Shown here in pieces: positions 6,357 to 23,019 of a stretch of DNA of 64,000 nt. The stretch covers positions 124,001 to 188,000 of the forward strand of contig VZDP01000002.1 in the NCBI GenBank assembly GCA_009756935.1. Direction: 5' to 3'. Position 1 is the first letter of the stretch. Every line of letters begins with the position of its first letter. Below the pieces are notes generated by a model. That model was given only the letters and a program-made list of their open reading frames with translations. It had not been told where the DNA came from and ran no database searches. The stretch is from Mesomycoplasma ovipneumoniae (GTDB lineage: Bacteria; Bacillota_I; Bacilli_A; Mycoplasmatales; Metamycoplasmataceae). The position numbers were made by a program, and so were the translations under genes.

Positions 6357-7186
6357 TTATGATTCAACCTTAATTTTTATAAATTTAATATTAGCAGGGC
6401 ATTTTTCACCGAAATTTTCTGAGCTAAATTCACCTTTGATATGATCTTCAGCCCAAATTCGCGTAAACTTTTTCTCTTTTGGTGCTGGTTTTCCTTGCTT
6501 TTTATAAGCAATTGATTTTAATCCTAAAAATTCGTAGTGTTTTTGAAACACGTACGTGGATACATAATTTCCCTGATTTATGTAAATATTATATAGGATG
6601 TCGCGGCCTTTTACCTTTCGATTTAAAATGAAATTTTCACGAATTCACTCAAGTAATTTTTCATCATAAATCATTTTCTTTGGTGGTTTTTTCACCCTTA
6701 TTTTCTCATAAATAGAAGTGCGATTAACGTTAAAAACGCTACAAATTCTAGTGCAATTTTCGATTTTATCTTTATCTTTCTCTTGTTCTTGTTTTCGTTT
6801 TTTGAGCTCCTCAAGAATAATTGCGGGGTCAATTCCGGATCTTCTAAGAACACTCTCCACTATTTCTTGATAAATTCCACGATCATTTTCAGAAAGATCG
6901 TTAATTGTATATTTCTTTTTTGGTTTGCGTGGAGATTTGATTTTCCCACGAGTACTTATTAAACTTTTCATATCATTATTATAAAACTTTTTTTGCCAAT
7001 TTCTTATCAAATTATTAGCATATATATGCAACATTCATTCTTTATCCGCTTTTTTACTTTTAGATTTGTTTTTTAAATTTCTCTAAATTCTTCTGCAAAA
7101 TGCAAAATTGCGTTTTTTAGCCCTTTAGATTCGGCAATTTTGATGTATTTAAATTTGTCTTCAATTGTAAATTTGTATTGTTTCAT
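6357..7186 (-). pseudogene. Broken IS3-family transposase
   Basis: Reading down from an ATG at 7186, a helix-turn-helix-like start (MKQYKFTIEDKFKYIKIAES) runs 37 codons into a TAA at ~7073. The rest continues in another frame, ~7070-6357, with OrfA-like features (HTH, lysine-rich coiled-coil with EELKKRKQEQEKDK) and the OrfB pre-core (DILYNIYINQGNYVS, then FQKHYEFLGLKSIAYKK). It ends at a TAA exactly where the DDE core should begin: the position of the WxTDIT motif reads KCPANIKFI, so the first catalytic Asp is lost and the integrase core is missing. Decayed fragment, surely inactive. Confidence 0.75.
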
Positions 7187-7388: not shown

Positions 7389-7817
7389 ATGAAAACATTT
7401 AAAATAAACGAGCGATTATATCTTAAACCTACAGACTCATATAAAGTTGCTTATGAACAATGGTATGCATTCGAAAAAAAAGTTATCGTATTAAAACCTT
7501 ACAACCTTACTTATCAACAATTACAAAGTACACCTATTAGAATAGTATTTTGCAGCATTTATTTTAATGCACTTATTGCCGAAGTTAGAATTACCCGCCA
7601 AACCCAAATTATCGAACTTTTTAAAATACTTCAACGCTTAAATTTTTCTGGAAATTTAATTACTAATATTTTAAACGCAATACTAAAGAATTGAGAAGAT
7701 CAATTTAAAAATAAAGACCTAGAACTTGTAACTTTCGCAGATACACCAGGTGAATTTTACAAATCAGTATTTAATGACAAACACGAACCTTTTCCAAAAG
7801 GTCGTATTGTTTTCTAA
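7389..7817 (+). CDS. Hypothetical protein, 142 aa
   Basis: Not recognised. Open from ATG 7389 (GGAGGA 12 bp upstream) to TAA, with one TGA-Trp. No signal peptide or membrane segment is apparent. The sequence starts MKTFKINERLYLKPTDSYK, has a mixed alpha/beta look and a basic C-terminal half, and ends FADTPGEFYKSVF...KGRIVF. It is alone between a broken IS3 fragment and a broken IS256 copy, so it is probably cargo or a survivor of accessory DNA. Codon use is like its neighbours. Confidence 0.6.
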
Positions 7818-7833: not shown

Positions 7834-9191
7834 GTGTTCATAATTTTGTGTTTTAAATTTTATGGATTTTTTCTGATAAAATCTAATTTAATTTTGCATT
7901 ATTTAATCGATTAGGGAAAATAATTCCTAACTGTTTTTTAATATCTGCCAATTTCTTAGCTGCATTTGTCATTTTTTAGATGCGTTTTGGAGTGTTAAAT
8001 AAGTTATTTTTGAAAGGTAATTCACACTTTGAATTCCGGATTTTATTTTTGTATTTTTGCTAATTAATTTATTCACTGATTTAATTGAATTTATCGTATA
8101 AATTGCTTGCCTTAATTCATATGGACATTTAAAAAATGTCGTTAATTCAATGAAATTTCCATACCAAGATTTGATAATTAAAGGATGTTTTTAGCCTCAT
8201 TTTTTCGCAAATTAATCAAGATTTTGCATTGCAGATTCTTGATAAATCTTTTTCATTTCATAGGCAAACTGTTTTTTGACCTTGTTAGAAATTTTTAAAA
8301 GCGAGTTTCTAATTTGGCGAACAACACATTTTTAAACATCTGTTTTCGGGAAAAGTGCTTCAATTGCTTGACTAATTCCGCTTAGATTATCACAAGAAAT
8401 TACTAGAACATCTTGTAGCCCGCGATTTTTTAGTTCACTAAAAACATCAACTCAATTAATTGCTGATTCGCTATTTTTAATCCAAAATCCCAGTACTTTT
8501 TTAATGTCCTGCCAATCAATTGCAAGAATAAGATAAAGTGATTTTTTGACAAAAACACCGTTTTCTTTAACATTAAAAAACATCCCATCAATGTACAAAA
8601 TTGGATAGGAATTCTCAATTTTTCGCGATTTTCACTTTTCAATTTCAGGCAATAATTTGTCAGTAACTGAAGAAATTCAGGCATTACTTATTTCTTTTTT
8701 ATAGATACTTTTTATTGTGTTAACAATATTTTCATATGACATTCCTGATGCAAAAAGTGAAAACACTTGCTCTTCGATATCGCCTAAATTTGTTTCGTAT
8801 TTACCGAGTAATTTGTTCTCAAAAGTGCCATTTCGATCTCTTGGTATTTTTAGATGAAAATTATTACTATTAAAATTCACAGTTTTACCCGAAAATCCGT
8901 TTCGCTTATTTGGCCTATGCACGCCTTTTTTGCTTCGGTTACTTTTTTCATAGCCTAAATGTTGGCTTAATTCCGCCCTTAAGAGCGCCTCAGTAAAAGT
9001 TTTAAACATATGCGAAATTTCGTTGTGAAAATCTTCTTTTTTTATTTTTTTATAATCAGCGTATTTGTCAACAAGTTTTTTAGCTTCTAACTCAAATGGG
9101 GATAATGTTTTTTGCTGTTTTTTCATATTTTGGTCCTTCATAATAAATTTTATCAAAATAAATTTACTTTAAAACACAAAATATTTAACAT
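7834..9191 (-). mobile_element. IS256-family element, copy 1 (decayed)
   Basis: Ends are inferred from comparison with the second copy at 21784-23019. The left end GTGTTCATAATTTTGTGTT and the right end, read on the minus strand, share a ~23-bp imperfect inverted repeat with TTTTGTGTTTTAA in common. The transposase is broken (next entry). Confidence 0.7.
7883..9156 (-). pseudogene. IS256-family transposase pseudogene
   Basis: Homologous to the intact copy at 21839-22954. The N-terminal DNA-binding part is complete here (KKGVHRPNKRNGFSG, FHLKIPRDRNGTFEN), followed by the DDE core with YIDGMFFNVKENG and ISCDNLSG. A CAA codon of the other copy is TAA here (near 8332-8334), a 12-bp segment between CTTGA repeats is missing at ~8240, and the reading frame differs between the two ends, so there is also net frameshifting. 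Inactive. The ~210 bp at 8470-8680 are nearly identical to the second copy. Confidence 0.85.
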
Positions 9192-9267: not shown

Positions 9268-10845
9268 TTAAAATTTTAGACAAAAATCGAATTTTTCAGC
9301 TAAATTTTGGTCTAAATTATGCAAAACTAACAAGAGGGTAACATCTTGCTCAAGTAGTCAATTTATAAGATTATTAATATTTGATTTGTCAAGATTTGAA
9401 AAACCTTCATCGATAATTAATATTTTTTTTGTTTCAAAAACATGACTTGCAAAATTAATTAACTGTTTTTGTCCAACTGATAGATCTGTTTTTTCTTGGT
9501 AATTAATTAAGTTTTTGTCTTTTAGGTCATTTAAATTAATTAAATTAATTAATTCATTGATTTTTTCAAGATCAGTTTTTGAATAAAAACTGATATTTTC
9601 AGCTAAATTACCTTCAATTAAGGCCGGATTATTATCAATAAAACTTATATTTTGAATAATATTTTTATCAGAAATTGTTTTTAAATTAGTTGAATTGAAA
9701 AAAATCTCACCTTTATAATCGCGCTCAATACCCATTAAAATCTTTAAAAACGTCGATTTTCCAGAGCCATTATCACCTTGAAGCAAATATTTTTTACCAA
9801 CTATAATTTCAAAATTAATATTTTCTAGCACTTTTTTATTTTCATAGTCAAAATTCAAGTTTTTGACGCTAATTTTATGAATTTTTTCTGTAAAATCTTC
9901 AAAATTCAAATTTGTTTTAGGTTTATTTTCATTTAATTTAGAATCTTTAAATTGTTTTTTCAGTGATAAATATTGAACTCCCACAACAATAAAAGTATTA
10001 AAATTACTGATAAGTAACTGGTTGGCACTATTGATAGTTACCAAAGCAATTATTGTTGATGCTGGATTTTCATAATAAATTCCTAAAAAAATGATTGCTA
10101 AATCCGTTAAAATTAAAAATAATTTGCGAATTGTTAAATTTATATTTGTATTAAATTGATCCCACAATCTATATTTTCTTTGCATAAAACTGGCGTTTTT
10201 TGATGTTGGTGTTAGGATTTTTTTTAGCAAATGAATTTTACCGAAAAATAAAAATGCCTCAAATTTATTTAATTTTTCGCTAAATTCGCTGTTTAAATTT
10301 TCAAGTGAATCTAGTTGTTGTCTAATTTTTTCACTAAAAAATTTTCTAAAAAAAATGGGAAAAGTAATTCAAGCCAAAGTCAAACCAAAAACTATTGATC
10401 CAATTATTGGATTTATATAAAAAATAGTTGCCAAAATTGCAATAATTGGAAAAATTAAAGAAATAATATAAAATAAAAATGCAAAAAGTGTCTCGCCTTT
10501 TGTGAAAGCCTCGTTAAAAAACAATGAAAAATAGTTTCCAGGGGTATTTTTAACATATTCTTTATATGATAAATTGTTAAAAATACTCAATTTTTCTTTA
10601 ATTAATTTTAGCGCGCTTAATTGTCCAAAAATTCTTGAAAAAAGTGAATTATAAATAACAGATAAAAGAGAACTAATTATAATTGCAAACATATCTAACC
10701 CTAACCAAATTCACATTTTAATTTGATTATTGTCTGATAAAGCCTGGTATAAAAATCTTTTTGTAACTACTGAAAGACCAACGATACAAAATATAAAAAG
10801 TGAATAAAAAATATTAAAAATATGCAATTTAACTATTTTTTTCAT
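9268..10845 (-). CDS. ABC exporter, fused membrane and ATPase domains (lanthipeptide locus, second subunit)
   Basis: 525 residues in code 4. The N-terminal half has about six hydrophobic segments (ABC type 1 exporter domain); the ATPase half has Walker A GDNGSGKST (residues ~357-365), signature LSVGQKQ, Walker B KILIIDEGF and an H-loop His (LVLHNLD). No N-terminal C39 peptidase domain is present, so it would not remove a leader peptide. The ATG at 10845 lies inside the 3' end of the preceding exporter gene (17-bp overlap, GGAG-type site upstream), implying translational coupling and a heterodimer. Last gene of the minus-strand operon that begins with the precursor peptide at 14864. Confidence 0.85.
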
Positions 10846-12436
10846 GATTATTTTTCTCCAGGTTAATTATTTCATCAAAGCCTAATTTTTGCAAATCACT
10901 TATATGATGACTAACAAAAATAATAGTTAATTCGGGGTTTTTTAACAATTGACCTATTAAAATATTTGAATAATCCTTCTGAATATTGTCAAAAGCTTCA
11001 TCAATTAGTCAAAATTTAATAGGAGAATATTGGAGCCGTGCAAAAACAATTTTTTGTTTTTGGCCTTCTGAAAGACTATTAGTACTAATTTGGGCTTCGA
11101 GGTCAAAGTCAATTTCTAGTGATTTAAGAATTGAATTTAACTTTTGATAATCTGGATTTTCTGCAAATAAAGTAATGTTGTTTTTGAGGGTTGTATTAAA
11201 AATTAAATTTTGATTATCTATAAGTCCAATTTGATCTCTTAGATATTTTTGGTTCAATTCTTTCTGCTCATAGTTATTATTTATTAAGATTTTGCCTTCG
11301 TAGGTGTCATAAACTCCGGAAATTATTTTAATTAGGGTGGATTTTCCGGCGCCATTTCGCGCTGAAATCAAGTATTTTTTATTTTTTTCGAAAATAAAAT
11401 TGAAATTATCTACGATAGTTTTATCTTCAAATTTAAAATTAACATTTTGAAATTTAATACTATTGATAGGTTCTTGAATCATTACTTTTTGTTCTGACAA
11501 ATTATTATCTTCAACAATTTTGTCATACAAAAATGACGATTGTTTGAATGAAAATAATCCGAGGACAATTTCTCCAATGTCAGAATGCAATTGATTTGAG
11601 TATAAAAGTAGTGATAGAAAAATCGTCAAACTATAAAAATTATAAAATGTTAAAACTGATATTTCCATTATAATAAATGCTACTGAAATACTAAATAAAA
11701 AATTTAATCAAACATTTAACTTTGTCAGTTTTTTATACTCTTTTATTTGTTTTTTGGAAAAATTTTTATAACTTGTGTAAAATAATTGTTTAAATCTTTC
11801 TATTTTATTGTGAAAATAGAAAGATTTAAATGAATTAAGAAGTCCTAAATTATACTGTGAAAAAATTTCGCTATCTCTTGATAGATTCATGACAGGTTCT
11901 GATGCAAAATTGTTAATTTTTTGTTGAAAAAATAGCAAAACTAAACTTAAAATCATGGTCGATAAAATTAAAATTCAACTTCAATTTAATGACAAAACTA
12001 TCATTAATGAGATTCCGCCAAAAATTGATATAAGTGGAGTTATTATGTTTAAAAAGTTACCAATTATTTCTAAGGCAAGTCTAAGATCATAATTAAACCA
12101 CGAAATCATAGAATTTCTGTTAAATTTCAAGTGAAAATAGGAGCTGTTTTGAATTTTTTTAATAATAATATCGCTTAATTTATTTCTAATATCCATTTCT
12201 AAAAGACTGAAAATCCAACCTTTTAGAAATGAAAAAATGATAAAAATTCCAAGCGGTACTATTAACATAACCAAGGTCAAACCTAAATTAAGAGTAGGTT
12301 TTTCTTCAACAAAAAATTCAACAACAAATTTATAGCTAAAAATGTGAACTAAAAGTCCTGCTTCTTTTATTAATATTATAAAAATTATTAGTATGAATTT
12401 TGGTCTTGCTAAGTTGAATAATTTGAAAATGTTCAT
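10829..12436 (-). CDS. ABC exporter, fused membrane and ATPase domains (lanthipeptide locus, first subunit)
   Basis: 535 residues. Six predicted membrane segments (for example LILIIFIILIKEAGLL-like hydrophobic stretches) are followed by an ATPase with Walker A RNGAGKST (residues ~360-367), signature SLSEGQKQ, Walker B WLIDEAF and H-loop FVSHHISD. ATG 12436 is chosen because GAGGAG lies 5 bp upstream; an in-frame TTG at 12448 overlaps that site. It follows the synthetase gene by 54 bp. Together with the next gene it probably forms a heterodimeric peptide exporter or immunity pump. The family includes drug exporters too, so the substrate is inferred from context. Confidence 0.86.
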
Positions 12437-12490
12437 TTTTCTCCTCAATTATTCTAATTAAGATAGTATAAACTAATTTAGGAAAAGTAA

Positions 12491-14683
12491 TTAAGTGAAT
12501 AATTCTGAAATTATTATTATAGAGGCGTAAATTTTTGGCTTATAATTATTAATTTTTAAATTTTTTTGATAGCAATAATTTAAAAATTTTTCATTCTTAA
12601 CAACTTTGTAAATAGTATTAATTATCAAATAATTCAAAATTTTAAATTCTTTATGATGAAAGAGAATATCTACAAAAAATTTTTTTTCTTCATCTCAAAA
12701 ACTTAAAACAAAAATTACTCATTTTAAAACTTGTTCATAATAGTTTTTTTCATTAATTTTTTGACCGAAATAATGTATTAATCCTGTAACACCATGGAAA
12801 AAATTAATTTTGGTGGAAATCATACCTTCTAATGATTTCTCGAGTAATGTAATTCGCTTGTAATATTTATTGTATTTTCCTTTTAAAACTAAGTAACACA
12901 AACCAAGAGAGCCATCTCAAATGTATGGTGATAAATATTTTTTGTTTTTAACAAGAATTTGGTTATTATGTTTTTCTACGCGCTTATCGAAAATATAATC
13001 AATTATTTTTTGATAATAAAAATTGCTTGAAAAATCGTTATATAACTTGCTCTTCAATAAAAACCAATGCCCCCAAAATAGTAGATTTGAAGTAGTAAAA
13101 TTACCTAAATTAGTAAATTTGAAAAATTTTTCATATTTTTGTAACTTTTCTATTAAATAGGAAGGTATTTCAATATCATTAATTATTTTATATAGAAAAT
13201 CTTCTTTAAAATTACTAAATTTTAATGGTTTATTTGAATTACAAATTTTATAAATATATTCAACCTTTTCAACTAAATCACTAAAGGTTGATGTTGATGG
13301 TTTAACAAATGTTTTATTTAAAAATTCAAAATTAGACCTAGTGCCAATATATTTGCTTTTTTTAAATACATCACAAATATCTGTTATTAACCATAATGGG
13401 AAATTGTAAAACAAAATAAAATTATATAAGGATAGCAGTAATCATTTAATTTGGAATTGATTTTTAAGTACTAAAGTTTCTCCTATTAATGATTCAATAA
13501 AAATATAGTTTAATTTCAAAATATCAATTAGGAAAGCGGGGGTTTTATTAGGAAACTTGTCATTAAATAATGAAATTTTACTTAATATTTTTTCTGTTTT
13601 AGAGCCTAAAACATACGAAGTTTCTAGATCAATAAAAAAACACTTTATATTATTACAAATAAAATTTTTTGGATTAACATCATTCAATATTATGTTCTCA
13701 TTGTGAAAATTATAAATACAGTCAAATGCTTTTCTAAAATTATCTCTATATTTTTTTCTATCGTTAGAATTGAATCAATTTCTTCTATGAAAGTTTATGC
13801 TATTTAATATGAACTTTAAATCTTTACCATTGATAAAACTTTTGGATAGATAAAAATTATTTTGAAAAACAAAACTATCAATATATTGGTGAGAATATTG
13901 AAAATTTTTATTTGATAACTGAAATAACAATTTTGCTTCATTGCGTCTAAAAAAAATTAGCTGAATATTTTTAGTAGTTATCGCATAAAGTGGAGATGAT
14001 TTCAGGATGATATACTTTTTACTATGAATATCTTGTGCAAAAAATATAGTTGAAATAGTGTTTCTATGAACAAAATATAGGATTAGAAACCGATTATTCA
14101 ATATAACTTTTTCAAAATTAAACAATGAGTTATTACGCGGGAATGGTTCGTTTATAAAAACAGGCAGAAAATACTCCGCCTGTTTTCTATCTAATATTTT
14201 TTGGTTATTTGGACCAATTAAATAAGGTTTATGCGAATAATTTGATCCATAACGATAAAAAACATTTGTTGAATCAAAAAAGATTCTACTAGAATTTATG
14301 TTAACACCTATAAATTTTTTTAAAGCATTGTATAGGTACATTACATAAATTTTAAATTTTTCTTCAGACTCGCAATAAATAGTTATAAATTTACCAAATG
14401 AAAAAATGTCGATATTAATTGATTGATTATTTAGCAATAATTGTTCATTCTTTATAAACTTAAAGTTTATTTCATTTTCAAAACAATAATCAAAAACTAT
14501 TTGTAAAACATTAATAGCATGTTTTGCAATGGATGAAATATGGATTTTTCACCCGTAATCTGGTATTTTAGTAGAAGAAAAATTTGCAGAGATAAAAATT
14601 TTATCTTCATTAAAAATAACATTCTGCTTTATGAATTTTATTTTGTCAAGATAAAAAATATCTCTAACTTTTAGAAATTTCAT
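12491..14683 (-). CDS. Class III (LanKC-type) lanthionine synthetase
   Basis: 730 residues, MKFLKVRDIF to TAA, continuous once TGA is Trp. It reads as the three-domain class III synthetase. (1) Lyase: GWKIHIS (residues ~44-50), GKFITIY (~97-103), YRYG (~143-146), then a DRK within ILDRKQAEYFLPVF (~163-176), matching the usual order in LanKC proteins. (2) Ser/Thr kinase: catalytic loop ILNDVNPKNF (D335, N340) and metal-binding FIDLET (D352). (3) LanC-like cyclase from ~400 with alpha-barrel motifs WDGSLGL (~589) and FFHGVTGLIHYF (~628), but no Cys-Cys-His zinc ligands, as in class III enzymes. Slightly short for the family (~800-900). The precursor gene lies 37 bp upstream and the exporters downstream. 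Alternative: a class IV enzyme, less likely given the N-terminal motifs and missing zinc site. Confidence 0.87.
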
Positions 14684-14692
14684 AAATAATTT

Positions 14693-14721
14693 AAATTATT
14701 GCAAAAAGCATGCAATAATTT
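14693..14721 (-). promoter_or_regulatory. Hairpin between precursor and synthetase genes
   Basis: Perfect 11-bp inverted repeat (AAATTATTGCA 14693-14703 and its complement 14711-14721) with a 7-nt loop, starting at the precursor stop codon and ending 10 bp before the synthetase ATG. No long T-run follows, so it fits partial termination or mRNA protection, the common way RiPP operons make more precursor than enzyme. Confidence 0.6.
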
Positions 14722-14864
14722 TATTTATTAATTATAATAACGCATCTTCAAGTTATATTTAAAATAGCGAAATTAACAATTTCATTTTTAGAAAAACTGT
14801 CTAACTCAGTCAAAGATGTTGTTGTGTCTAATTCAGGTAATAAATTTAAATCTAGGAATTTCAT
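14721..14864 (-). CDS. Putative lanthipeptide precursor peptide, 47 aa
   Basis: ATG at 14864 with an excellent site (GGAGGT, 7 bp spacing) and TAA at 14721; one TGA-Trp. Residues 3-12 are FLDLNLLPEL, close to the class III leader signature (I/F)LxL(Q/N) recognised by LanKC enzymes. The rest is rich in Ser/Thr (T14-T16, S17, T19, S23, S25, T38) and has a single Cys, C41, in NITWRCVIIINK. T38-W-R-C41 has the spacing for one methyllanthionine ring. It lies directly in front of the synthetase. Length, leader motif and position all fit LanA; the modification itself is inferred. It lacks the classic Ser-x2-Ser-x(2-5)-Cys labionin pattern. Confidence 0.75.
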
Positions 14865-14891
14865 TATACACCTCCACTATATTTTTTTACA

Positions 14892-14900
14892 ATTATAGCA
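14892..14900 (-). promoter_or_regulatory. Extended -10 promoter of the lanthipeptide operon
   Basis: Minus-strand TGCTATAAT, an extended -10 element, ~28 bp before the precursor ATG. It is the only good promoter match seen upstream of the five-gene-length unit, which suggests one transcript from 14885 to 9268. Confidence 0.6.
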
Positions 14901-15276
14901 TTTAATAAAATTTTAAAAAGAAAAAACTAATAAAATTTTTTATGTTTTTTTATTGGTCGTAGGCATTAAATAAAACTAGGTGAATCAAAAAAACTATGAT
15001 TCTCTTGCATGCAATTAATCTTTCAATATTTCAAATTAAAAAAAATAATAAATAATATTTAATTTACTAAAAAAATCAAAACATTTTTTCTTGGTTTCAA
15101 TAGTAATAATATTTTTTAATCTTTAGTGGTTGAAGAAAATCGCCTTTTGTTTAAAAAATTAAAAAGTTGAATTTTTTGTGCTAATTTAACATAGAATTTT
15201 CCTATTAACTTAAAAATGTTTTCTTACAAATTATTATGCTAATTTTTTAGCAATTTGTAGGAAAAAATCAAATTTA
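14901..15276. other. Intergenic region between lanthipeptide operon and pyrG
   Basis: No gene seen; only very short frames without ribosome binding sites. Near the pyrG end lies a nested inverted repeat: outer arms TCTTACAAATT (15222-15232) and AATTTGTAGGA (15252-15262), inner arms TGCTAA / TTAGCA. It sits just upstream of the pyrG -10 and could be an operator. Confidence 0.45.
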
Positions 15277-15285
15277 TGGTATAAT
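15277..15285 (+). promoter_or_regulatory. pyrG promoter, extended -10
   Basis: TGGTATAAT at 15277-15285 (TGn-TATAAT), 20 bp before the ATG; AAAGGA at 15294-15299 is the ribosome binding site. Confidence 0.65.
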
Positions 15286-15305
15286 TTGTTATCAAAGGAA
15301 AAATT

Positions 15306-16910
15306 ATGCCAAAATATATTTTTGTCAGCGGTGGAGTTTTATCCGGGATTGGCAAAGGTGTTTCAGTTGCTTCAGTTGCTAATTTATTAAAAAATTGCGG
15401 CTATTCGGTTTATATTTTGAAACTGGATCCATATTTAAATGTTGATCCAGGGGTTTTATCACCTTATGAACATGGTGAAGTTTTTGTAACCGCCGATGGT
15501 GGTGAAACTGATTTAGATTTAGGTCATTACGAGCGATTTGTTGGTCAAAATTTTTCAAAAGATTCAAATCACACAAGTGGTAAAATTTTACTTTCAATTA
15601 TTAAGAAAGAAAGAAAAGGTTTTTATCAAGGAAAAACTGTCCAAATAATTCCGCATGTAATTGATGAAATTATTTCACGAATCAAAAGTGTTGGCAATAA
15701 ATACCAAAGTGATTTTATTTTAGTTGAAATTGGTGGGACTGTTGGTGATATGGAATCAAATCCGTTTTTCTTTGCAGCCTCACAGATGGCCGCTGAGTCA
15801 AATTTTAAAAATGTGTTTTTTATTCACACAACCTACATTCCTTTTTTGAATGCTTCTAATGAATTTAAAACTAAACCGGCTCAGTTTTCTATAGCTGAAT
15901 TAAATTCGCGTGGAATTCGTGCAAATGCGATTTTTTTGCGACTTGAACATGATCAAATTGATGATCATGTTGCAAAAAAAGTTGCAAAAAGTGCCTTTTT
16001 GCCATTAGAAAATGTTATTGTTATTCCAAATCTTAAAAATATCTACCAACTTCCGTTGTTATTAGAAAAAAGTAACCTATTAAATGCTATTTTTTCCCAT
16101 TTTGAATTAGAACATAGACAACCTAAATTAGACAAATGGAGAGATTTTACTAATTTATTATTAAAAAAATGAGATAAAACAATAAAAATAGGCGCACTTG
16201 GAAAATACACACAATTTTTAGATGCTTATAAGTCAATTTTAGAAGCCCTTAAAATAACAGCCGCCTACCAAAAAATAAATTTAGAATTAGAATTTATTAA
16301 TACCGCTGATCTAAACTTTTCAACTAGTCAGTTAGAAAAATTTGATGGAATAATAATTTTACCAGGTTTTGGTTTTCGTGGATTTGAAAATAAAGTAGAA
16401 TCTGCTATTTTTACTTATCAAAATAATATTCCAACATTTGGAATTTGCCTTGGAATGCAAGCAATGACAGTTGCAATTGCGCGTCTAAATGGGATTAAAA
16501 ACGCACATTCAGCTGAATTTTTAGCAGAAAAACCTAACCAAACAAGTGTTCTTGATTATAATAAAATTGATGGTTCTAAACTTCAAATTGGTGGAACTCT
16601 CAGACTTGGTGAGTATAAGGTTGTTTTTGCGCAAAATTCCAGAATTGCCCAAATTTATGGAACTTCTTTTGCATATGAAAGACACCGTCATCGATTTGAA
16701 GTTGTTCAAAAATATGTTGACCAACTTGAGAATTCTGACTTTAGTTTTACTGGCCGAGATTCAGTTTCTAATTTAATTGAAGTTTGTGAATCTAAATCTC
16801 ATATTTTTTATATTGGTGTCCAATATCATCCTGAATTTGTAACAAGACCTCTAGAGTCTCACCCACTTTTTAACAGTTTTTTTGAAACTATTATTAAAAA
16901 TAAGTACTAA
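15306..16910 (+). CDS. pyrG: CTP synthase
   Basis: Converts UTP to CTP using glutamine and ATP. 534 residues. The synthase domain starts MPKYIFVSGGVLSGIGKG with the P-loop, followed by KLDPYLNVDPG and EHGEVFVTADGGETDLDLGHYERF. The class I glutamine amidotransferase domain has the nucleophile elbow FGICLGMQAM and the late HPEF His-Glu pair (YHPEF). Needs TGA-Trp at 16170. Single gene with its own promoter, convergent with pgsA (1-bp gap). Confidence 0.97.
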
Positions 16911-21783: not shown

Positions 21784-23019
21784 GTGTTCATAATCTTGTG
21801 TTTTAAATTTTTATGGATTTTTCAAATAGAAATGTAATCTAATTTAATTTTACATTATTTAACCGATTAGGGAAAATAATTTCTAATTGTTTTTTAATCA
21901 TGAATCAATTTCTTACCTTTTGTCATTTTGTAGATGCGTTTTGGAGAGTTAAATAAGTTATTTTTGAAAGGTAATTTACACTTTGAATTCCGCCTTTTGT
22001 TTTTGTATTTTTCCTAATTATTCTATTCATTGACTCAATTAAATTTGTCGTATAAATTGCTTGCCTCAATTCATATGGATATTTAAAAAATGTCGTTAGT
22101 TCAACGAAATTTGTATACCAAGACTTGATAATTGAAGGATATTTTTGGCCTCATTTTTCCGCAAATTTATCAAGATTTTGCATTGCAAATTCTTGATTAG
22201 CCGCTTGATAAATCTTTTTCATATCAAGGACAAACTCTTTTTTGTCTTTGTTAGAAACTTTTAAAAGCGAGTTTCTAATTTGGTGAACAACACATTTTTG
22301 AACATCTGTTTGCGGGAAAACCGCTTCAATTGCTTGAGTAATTCCACTTAGATTATCGCAAGAAATTATTAGAACATCTTCCAGCCCGCGAGTTTTTAGT
22401 TCGCTAAAAACATCAAGTCAATTACTTGCTGATTCGGTATTTTTAATCCAAAATCCCAGTGCTTTTTTATTTCCGTCCCAATCAATTGCAAGAATAAGAT
22501 AAAGTGATTTTTTGACAAAAACACCGTTTTCTTTAACATTAAAAAACATCCCATCAATGTACAAAATTGGATAGGAATTCTCAATTTTTCGCGATTTTCA
22601 CTTTTCAATTTCAGGCAATAATTTGTCAGTAACTGAAGAAATTCAGGCATTACTTATTTCTTTTTTATAGATACTTTTTATTGTGTTAACAATATTTTGA
22701 TATGGTAACCCTGATGCAAAAAGCGAAATTACTTGCTCTTCGATATGACCTAAATTTTTGCTTTGGCTGCTTTTTTCATAGTCTAAATGTTGGTTTAATT
22801 CCACTTTTGATAGTTCTTGAATAAAAGTTTCAAATATAACCGAAATTTTGTTGCGAGAATCTTCTTTTTTGTATTCTTCAGAATCAACGTATTTTTTAGC
22901 AAATTTTTCAATTTCTAACTCAAATGGGGATAATTGTTTTTGCTTTTTTTTCATATTTTAGTCCCTTATGATAAATTTTATCAAAACAGATTTACCTTAA
23001 AACACAAAATATTTAATAT
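21784..23019 (-). mobile_element. IS256-family element, copy 2
   Basis: Bounded by the same ends as copy 1: GTGTTCATAATCTTGTGTT on the left and, inverted, ...TTTTGTGTTTTAA on the right. Contains one open transposase gene. Outer limits are estimated from the match between the two copies. Confidence 0.75.
21839..22954 (-). CDS. IS256-family transposase, open but internally deleted
   Basis: Continuous for 371 residues in code 4 (checked codon by codon through the catalytic domain). The DDE residues are present: D134 in YIDGMFFNV, D200 in ISCDNLSG and E307 in TNLIESMNRIIR, and the C terminus is typical. Compared with copy 1, roughly 55 residues of the N-terminal DNA-binding part are missing (YEKSSQSK joins directly to NLGHIEEQV). 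The frame was kept, so the protein may be made but could bind its ends poorly. ATG 22954. Confidence 0.88.

Follow-up and report, generated by a model that had tools for sequence, protein, structure and literature searches.

Mollicutes have no cell wall and few genes, and a natural-product pathway is not expected to be kept in them. Does a group of four genes in Mesomycoplasma ovipneumoniae, lying within the 64,000-nt stretch of DNA analyzed here (the window), make a lanthipeptide, as an initial annotation had proposed, and what would such a peptide be for? We consider it probable that these genes are a lanthipeptide unit of class III type, which makes and exports a peptide with one methyllanthionine ring for rivalry among mycoplasmas.

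The gene unit

The genes and their order can be read directly (Table 1). All four open reading frames were found as annotated, in frame under code 4 and tightly spaced. The gap between the precursor gene and LanKC is 37 nt, and that between LanKC and ABC1 is 42 nt (54 nt from the ATG); ABC1 and ABC2 overlap by 17 nt.

Table 1. Features of the probable lanthipeptide unit, in window positions
Feature	Position	Strand	Remarks
Whole unit, precursor + LanKC + ABC1 + ABC2	9268-14864	minus	open only under code 4
Precursor gene, 47 aa	14721..14864	minus	leader MKFLDLNLLPEL..., C-terminal ...NITWRCVIIINK
LanKC, 730 aa	12491..14683	minus	6 TGA codons
LanKC regions (residues)			lyase ~20-185; kinase ~195-445; shortened LanC-like part ~460-730
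ABC1 half-exporter, 539 aa from TTG	10829..12448	minus	alternative ATG at 12436 stands behind ribosome-binding site
ABC2 half-exporter, 525 aa	9268..10845	minus	
Candidate -10 box TATAAT upstream of precursor gene	14892..14897	minus	read from sequence
Precursor ribosome-binding site GTGGAGG	14871..14877	minus	read from sequence; 6-nt match to AAGGAGGT
Codons T38-W39-R40-C41, predicted methyllanthionine ring	14742..14753	minus	T-x-x-C pattern; putative ring
RNA hairpin, 11 pairs, between precursor and LanKC	14693..14721	minus	folding energy vs shuffles

The hairpin between precursor and LanKC has a folding energy of -10.4 kcal/mol (z -3.75), which is equalled by one of 200 shuffles, and it may set the ratio of precursor to enzyme. 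The promoter scan gave no excess above shuffles (27 found, 27.1 expected). The TATAAT box is changed in seven near genomes that lack an intact LanKC. No terminator was found within 12400-15400, the ORFs of the unit include no regulator gene, and a protease gene is absent from the unit.

The LanKC enzyme

The window LanKC matches Pfam RamC_N with E=3.3e-29; its PF25816 score is 102.2 bits against a cut-off of 27. It also matches the NCBIfam LanKC model NF038151 (E=5.7e-50), yet its 170.6 bits do not reach the curated cut-off of 575. The proteins of M. hyopneumoniae, M. dispar, plasmid pMRC01, S. pluranimalium and S. delphini likewise stay below it, showing that this cut-off shuts out the short LanKCs as a group. 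A profile search against solved LanKC structures gives E=1.7e-89. Fold comparison (Foldseek/VIA) matched LanKC chains, the further rows being protein kinases that match the kinase part only, and the central Ser/Thr kinase fold is present. HMM, profile and fold comparison thus all agree with the annotation of a class III, LanKC-type locus in a mycoplasma.

Residues K46, H48, K98, R144, D335, N340 and D352 are invariant in alignment A1 (18 rows including the window), and K228 and E249 are nearly so. This bears out the annotated kinase residues D335-N340-D352. Of the annotated motifs, GWKIHIS and YRYG vary slightly and DRK is not conserved throughout. According to the available text of PMC10604976, ThurKC residues important by mutation are K65, K117 and R163, K257 and E279 of the kinase, and E384 of the DFE motif. 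They align with window K46, K98, R144, K228, E249 and E354, the placement of K228 coming from the profile alignment (a single-sequence alignment is one residue off). The window protein is ~63-64% identical to the M. hyopneumoniae protein, with catalytic residues kept; other close proteins are P0003 (59%) and that of M. dispar (38%). P0002, an M. hyopneumoniae relative, is already named class III lanthionine synthetase in one source.

The C-terminal part was annotated as a degenerate LanC-like domain, and indeed the window protein shows nothing against PF05147 up to E=1; none of the six mollicute LanKCs scanned reaches the PF05147 cut-off. In alignment with ThurKC this part lacks the zinc ligands, and at ~280 residues it is ~90 shorter than the 372 of ThurKC. 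The whole-length fold match to ThurKC nevertheless extends to model residue 697, and the PY..G and F.G..G pieces align. Window W589, F629 and H630 occupy the places of S726, F770 and D771 in the ThurKC cyclase, the last position being variable among mollicutes. On this alignment, catalyzed ring closure is doubtful. The shortened, zinc-ligand-free part raises the alternative of a dead LanC-like region and a different chemistry, in which Thr is dehydrated, yet no Thr-x-x-Cys thioether forms and the product is a linear dehydropeptide, a disulfide or another cross-link. A precedent is the class III enzyme NorKC, which makes a His-dehydrobutyrine cross-link as described in the available part of PMC11002830. 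The precursors argue against this chemistry, as described below.

Precursor peptides and the T-x-x-C pattern

Precursors were picked as ORFs of 25-90 aa with an ATG and a Shine-Dalgarno match of at least 4 nt, ending at most 250 nt upstream of LanKC, with no residue criterion; the placement rule was drawn up after a looser scan had been viewed. It picks an ORF in 13 of 25 loci. L070 (an ORF like a ribosomal protein, next to a broken LanKC) and L058 (a near copy of L057) were left out of the Cys count. In the remaining 11 peptides, Ser or Thr stands at -3 of every Cys (18/18; 17 Thr, 1 Ser). None of 100,000 shuffles reaches 18, and other offsets give 0 to 4. The count is 20/20 with L058 included and 18/22 with L070 included. 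As a control, the rule was applied upstream of 162 other large ORFs; it made 14 picks. Three of their 12 Cys had Ser or Thr at -3, and one of these three comes from a second-unit precursor in L052. Five peptides, the window's among them, have one T-x-x-C and six have two.

The fixed spacing, Cys at +3 from Thr (17/18) or Ser (1/18), is what a short thioether ring needs, whereas a free dehydrobutyrine or a disulfide would leave the Thr-Cys distance unfixed. We therefore regard the different chemistry as unlikely and favor the methyllanthionine ring.

Further precursor candidates were found by motif in L049, L052, L053 and L068. Motif-found peptides were kept out of the statistics; a 15-peptide set (23/23 Cys) contains four such and is not counted as evidence. 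No precursor was found in six of the 25 loci (L050, L055, L059, L067, L069 and L070).

Database relatives of the window precursor in M. ovipneumoniae are P0166 (79%) and P0167 (96%), both annotated just as "hypothetical protein", and the precursor occurs as two variants in this species, on 16 contigs in total. P0166 differs from the window precursor by two changes in the first 33 residues and by eight in the last 14, with T38, W39 and C41 retained. This contrast of kept leader and varied core has a Fisher p of 3e-4, in one comparison with the border set by eye. A 13-precursor profile matches "hypothetical protein" entries of M. felis, M. leonicaptivi, M. gallopavonis and M. gallinacea, and entries of the same name in M. 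conjunctivae, Mycoplasma sp. NEAQ87857, Mesoplasma entomophilum and M. ovipneumoniae; several of the peptides matched were themselves in the query.

SapB/RamC, labyrinthopeptin and other class III systems have S-x2-S-x(n)-C cores and a short leader with an L-D-L-type motif. The window system shares with SapB/RamC and labyrinthopeptin the enzyme family and the L-D-L-type leader, and differs by its single-Thr, single-Cys core. The S-x2-S-x(n)-C motif is absent from the window precursor, whose core is a single T-x-x-C. A labionin product was rejected for want of this motif; with one Thr and one Cys in the core, labionin is impossible.

Several other small ORFs were seen. G013 has a second unit (L052 52-3505), in which a precursor ending FTILCVIIQQ lies immediately upstream of another ABC pair. 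A broken RamC_N fragment stands some kilobases off (G013:C1:399018-399155). In L054 (G003) a kindred ORF without Cys lies upstream of an ABC pair. L051 (M. conjunctivae) carries, at -544..-347 upstream of LanKC, a second small ORF containing SSFTYICVISSGKKTKKENVKKRKKD, which may be an additional precursor whose tail is long and basic. A small ORF with HFTHVCRIV at L068 15790-15945 (minus) has four exporter halves in tandem nearby.

The exporter pair

ABC1 and ABC2 match PF00005 with E=6.6e-22 and E=3.8e-23. The best NCBIfam match of both is NF045998, the "Mbov_0121 family" of mycoplasma peptidase-domain ABC transporters, aligned over model positions 144-659 of 673 for ABC1 and 152-646 for ABC2; at 149.8 and 134.1 bits, both halves are below its cut-off of 500. 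The N-terminal peptidase domain of this family presumably lies in the first ~145 model positions, which both window halves lack. Neither the Pfam matches nor the NF045998 alignments, which begin only at 144 and 152, contain a peptidase domain. ABC1 is 92% identical to P0034 of M. ovipneumoniae; this value and the 96% between the precursor and P0167 point to M. ovipneumoniae, or a close relative, as the source.

Where a mollicute locus has a LanKC ORF of at least 590 aa (15 loci), at least one exporter half similar to those of the window is always present, and in 13 of these loci two or more full-length halves lie near LanKC. Both exporter genes are also open in the seven near genomes lacking an intact LanKC (7/7; 508-547 and 519-525 aa). 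Among these genomes dN/dS is 0.18 for ABC1, 0.21 for ABC2 and 0.04 for pyrG; the exporters are therefore kept by selection, less strictly than pyrG (a fivefold difference). Retention without LanKC is as self-protection would give, but another cargo would fit equally well.

Distribution and history

A first distribution scan with NF038151 gave matches in 86 of 97 genomes and also in 12 of 14 control genomes. Because this model matched the controls through the kinase part, RamC_N (1/14 controls) was chosen for the counts. Across the genus, where the initial annotation had named presence and absence as a check, the RamC_N cut-off is reached in four of 15 genomes, in one of them in pieces. It is found in 19 of the 135 family genomes (five of 14 genera) and in 6 of 395 genomes of the class (an even sample). 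A contig search for LanKC with alignment A2 kept 80 loci, all outside Mollicutes, and a single-protein query gave none.

The nearest genome compared shares 36% of sampled words with the window. All seven near genomes (G001, G005, G008, G009, G010, G014 and G015) have the exporter pair and LanKC wreckage at the same site. Two deletions interrupt their LanKC, at ~12568/13520 and ~13628/14785, and the deletion ends match or nearly match between genomes; the precursor start leads into 7-39 codons lacking Cys. A LanKC remnant of residues 551-729 only is found in G011, and LanKC is in pieces in G003. With RamC_N reaching its cut-off in four of 15 genomes, loss of the unit is commoner than retention within the genus.

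Such losses suggest that the window unit could itself be a dying relic without a product, intact by chance in this strain, and transposases within units L062 and L063 point the same way. But the 730-aa frame is open, its catalytic residues are conserved and it shares 64% identity with the M. hyopneumoniae protein. The precursor and its ribosome-binding site are intact, and the precursor occurs in the two M. ovipneumoniae variants on the 16 contigs. A relic is thus quite improbable, and a working unit is preferred. The transposase-like ORFs lie at L062 9170-10444 and L063 3883-5097, the latter splitting an exporter half. Extra enzymes in the LanKC-exporter gaps of these two loci were rejected, as the ORFs, read from sequence, resemble transposases.

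IS remnants do lie beside the unit, as annotated: an IS256-type transposase fragment at 8332-9156 and a weak IS3-transposase match at 6357-7034. Between them is a 142-aa plus-strand ORF (7389-7817) for which Pfam and NCBIfam give nothing up to E=1, and a 371-aa IS256-type copy is found elsewhere in the window (21839-22954). The proposal drawn from these remnants, of recent horizontal gain through the neighboring IS elements, does not hold up. The exporters, LanKC wreckage and IS remnants occupy one site in near genomes, one of which (L089) aligns unbroken to the window across the remnants. In the LanKC tree 15 of 16 mollicute sequences fall in one cluster (97/92), which also takes in P0012. 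The exception, L048, stands apart on a long branch, as a transfer might leave it; the deep forks of the tree are weak, and the tree puts the mollicute cluster beside no named donor. Recent gain is very improbable, and ancient presence with repeated loss fits the distribution best.

Comparison with known systems

The ThurKC/andalusicin system of Bacillus thuringiensis is a class III system with solved structures (8sam, 8sao and 8sap). ThurKC has ~860 aa with a full cyclase, as the accessible text of PMC10604976 gives it, compared with the 730 aa of the window LanKC. ThurA1 undergoes up to 11 dehydrations and forms labionin, whereas the window core holds a single Cys, as part of a T-x-x-C.

A closer likeness is found on the Lactococcus lactis plasmid pMRC01 (NC_001949, L190), whose LanKC of 614 aa is annotated only as "hypothetical protein". 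At L190 2915-5842 stand, in a row, an Rgg-type regulator gene, a 32-aa T-x-x-C peptide, the short LanKC and an MFS transporter. The 32-aa ORF, MKEQVIELNLLPKEVDNEEDIVITFMCPVTGS, has a strong ribosome-binding site; its leader IELNLLPKE compares with LDLNLLPEL in the window, and its core ITFMCPV likewise holds a T-x-x-C. This unit has the regulator and MFS transporter rather than an ABC pair, and in the tree the pMRC01 LanKC groups with P0007 and P0008, outside the mollicute cluster. A Staphylococcus simulans plasmid carries ordinary class III precursors, and the peptide found on L. kefiranofaciens pWW2 lacks T-x-x-C. T-x-x-C thus marks some short LanKCs, not class III overall.

Proposed pathway and role

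We infer the following pathway from the genes. The 47-aa precursor would bind LanKC through its amphipathic leader (FLDLNLL), the kinase domain would phosphorylate Thr38 and perhaps other Thr or Ser, and the lyase would eliminate the phosphate to give dehydrobutyrine. Cys41 would then add to it, closing the ring T38-W-x-C41, with little or no help from the worn LanC-like part. The leader would be removed by a protease encoded elsewhere in the cell; class III units are often without their own protease, as the available texts of PMC10604976 and PMC10885120 report. The ABC1/ABC2 pair would export the product and may also protect the producer cell. That the unit makes and exports a small ring-bearing peptide of lantibiotic type is, to judge by its sequence, very likely.

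A role toward other mycoplasmas is the least certain part of this reading. It is suggested, with the exporter as immunity, by the variable core, the patchy presence and the kept exporters. The product may instead be a signal or act on the host, the exporters being kept for other cargo. The kindred Lactococcus unit stands behind an Rgg-type regulator gene and has an MFS transporter, and the class III products SapB and AmfS are morphogenetic or signaling according to the available part of PMC13380574. On the other hand, the mycoplasma unit has no regulator, and its fast-varying core, patchy presence and kept exporters seem closer to bacteriocin systems. We hold a signal or host-acting peptide to be a real possibility, short of likely, and retain rivalry as the preferred role.

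Significance

Among the literature matches listed (titles and abstract starts, with subscription papers outside the scope), none describes a lanthipeptide locus in Mollicutes. The annotated novelty stands to that extent, but the unit is not unique, given the RamC_N matches elsewhere in the family. LanKCs are a known enzyme family; what the matches listed leave undescribed is the combination of this host group with a minimal T-x-x-C core and a cut-down LanC part. In a 2020 survey of more than 100,000 genomes a class III call depended on matches to both PF05147 and PF00069, and its main text, in the part available, leaves mycoplasma, Tenericutes and Mollicutes unmentioned (PMC7268733). Since the window protein matches neither PF05147 nor PF00069, it falls in a blind spot of that survey as so described.

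Fewer than half of the mycoplasma species searched carry related units. The present one supplies a defined enzyme and a defined substrate of 47 aa, and the prediction is sharp: a change of -18 Da and a ring from T38 to C41. Its LanKC is worn down to near the minimum that may still form a ring. More tentatively, Mollicutes may have minimal lanthipeptides in general: bacteriocins acting among mycoplasmas, with one or two Thr-x-x-Cys methyllanthionine rings, made by a metal-free, cut-down LanKC with little or no working cyclase, whose exporters would also serve as immunity kept by related non-producers after loss of the costly synthetase. Producer and non-producer pairs within one species offer natural material for asking what the product does.
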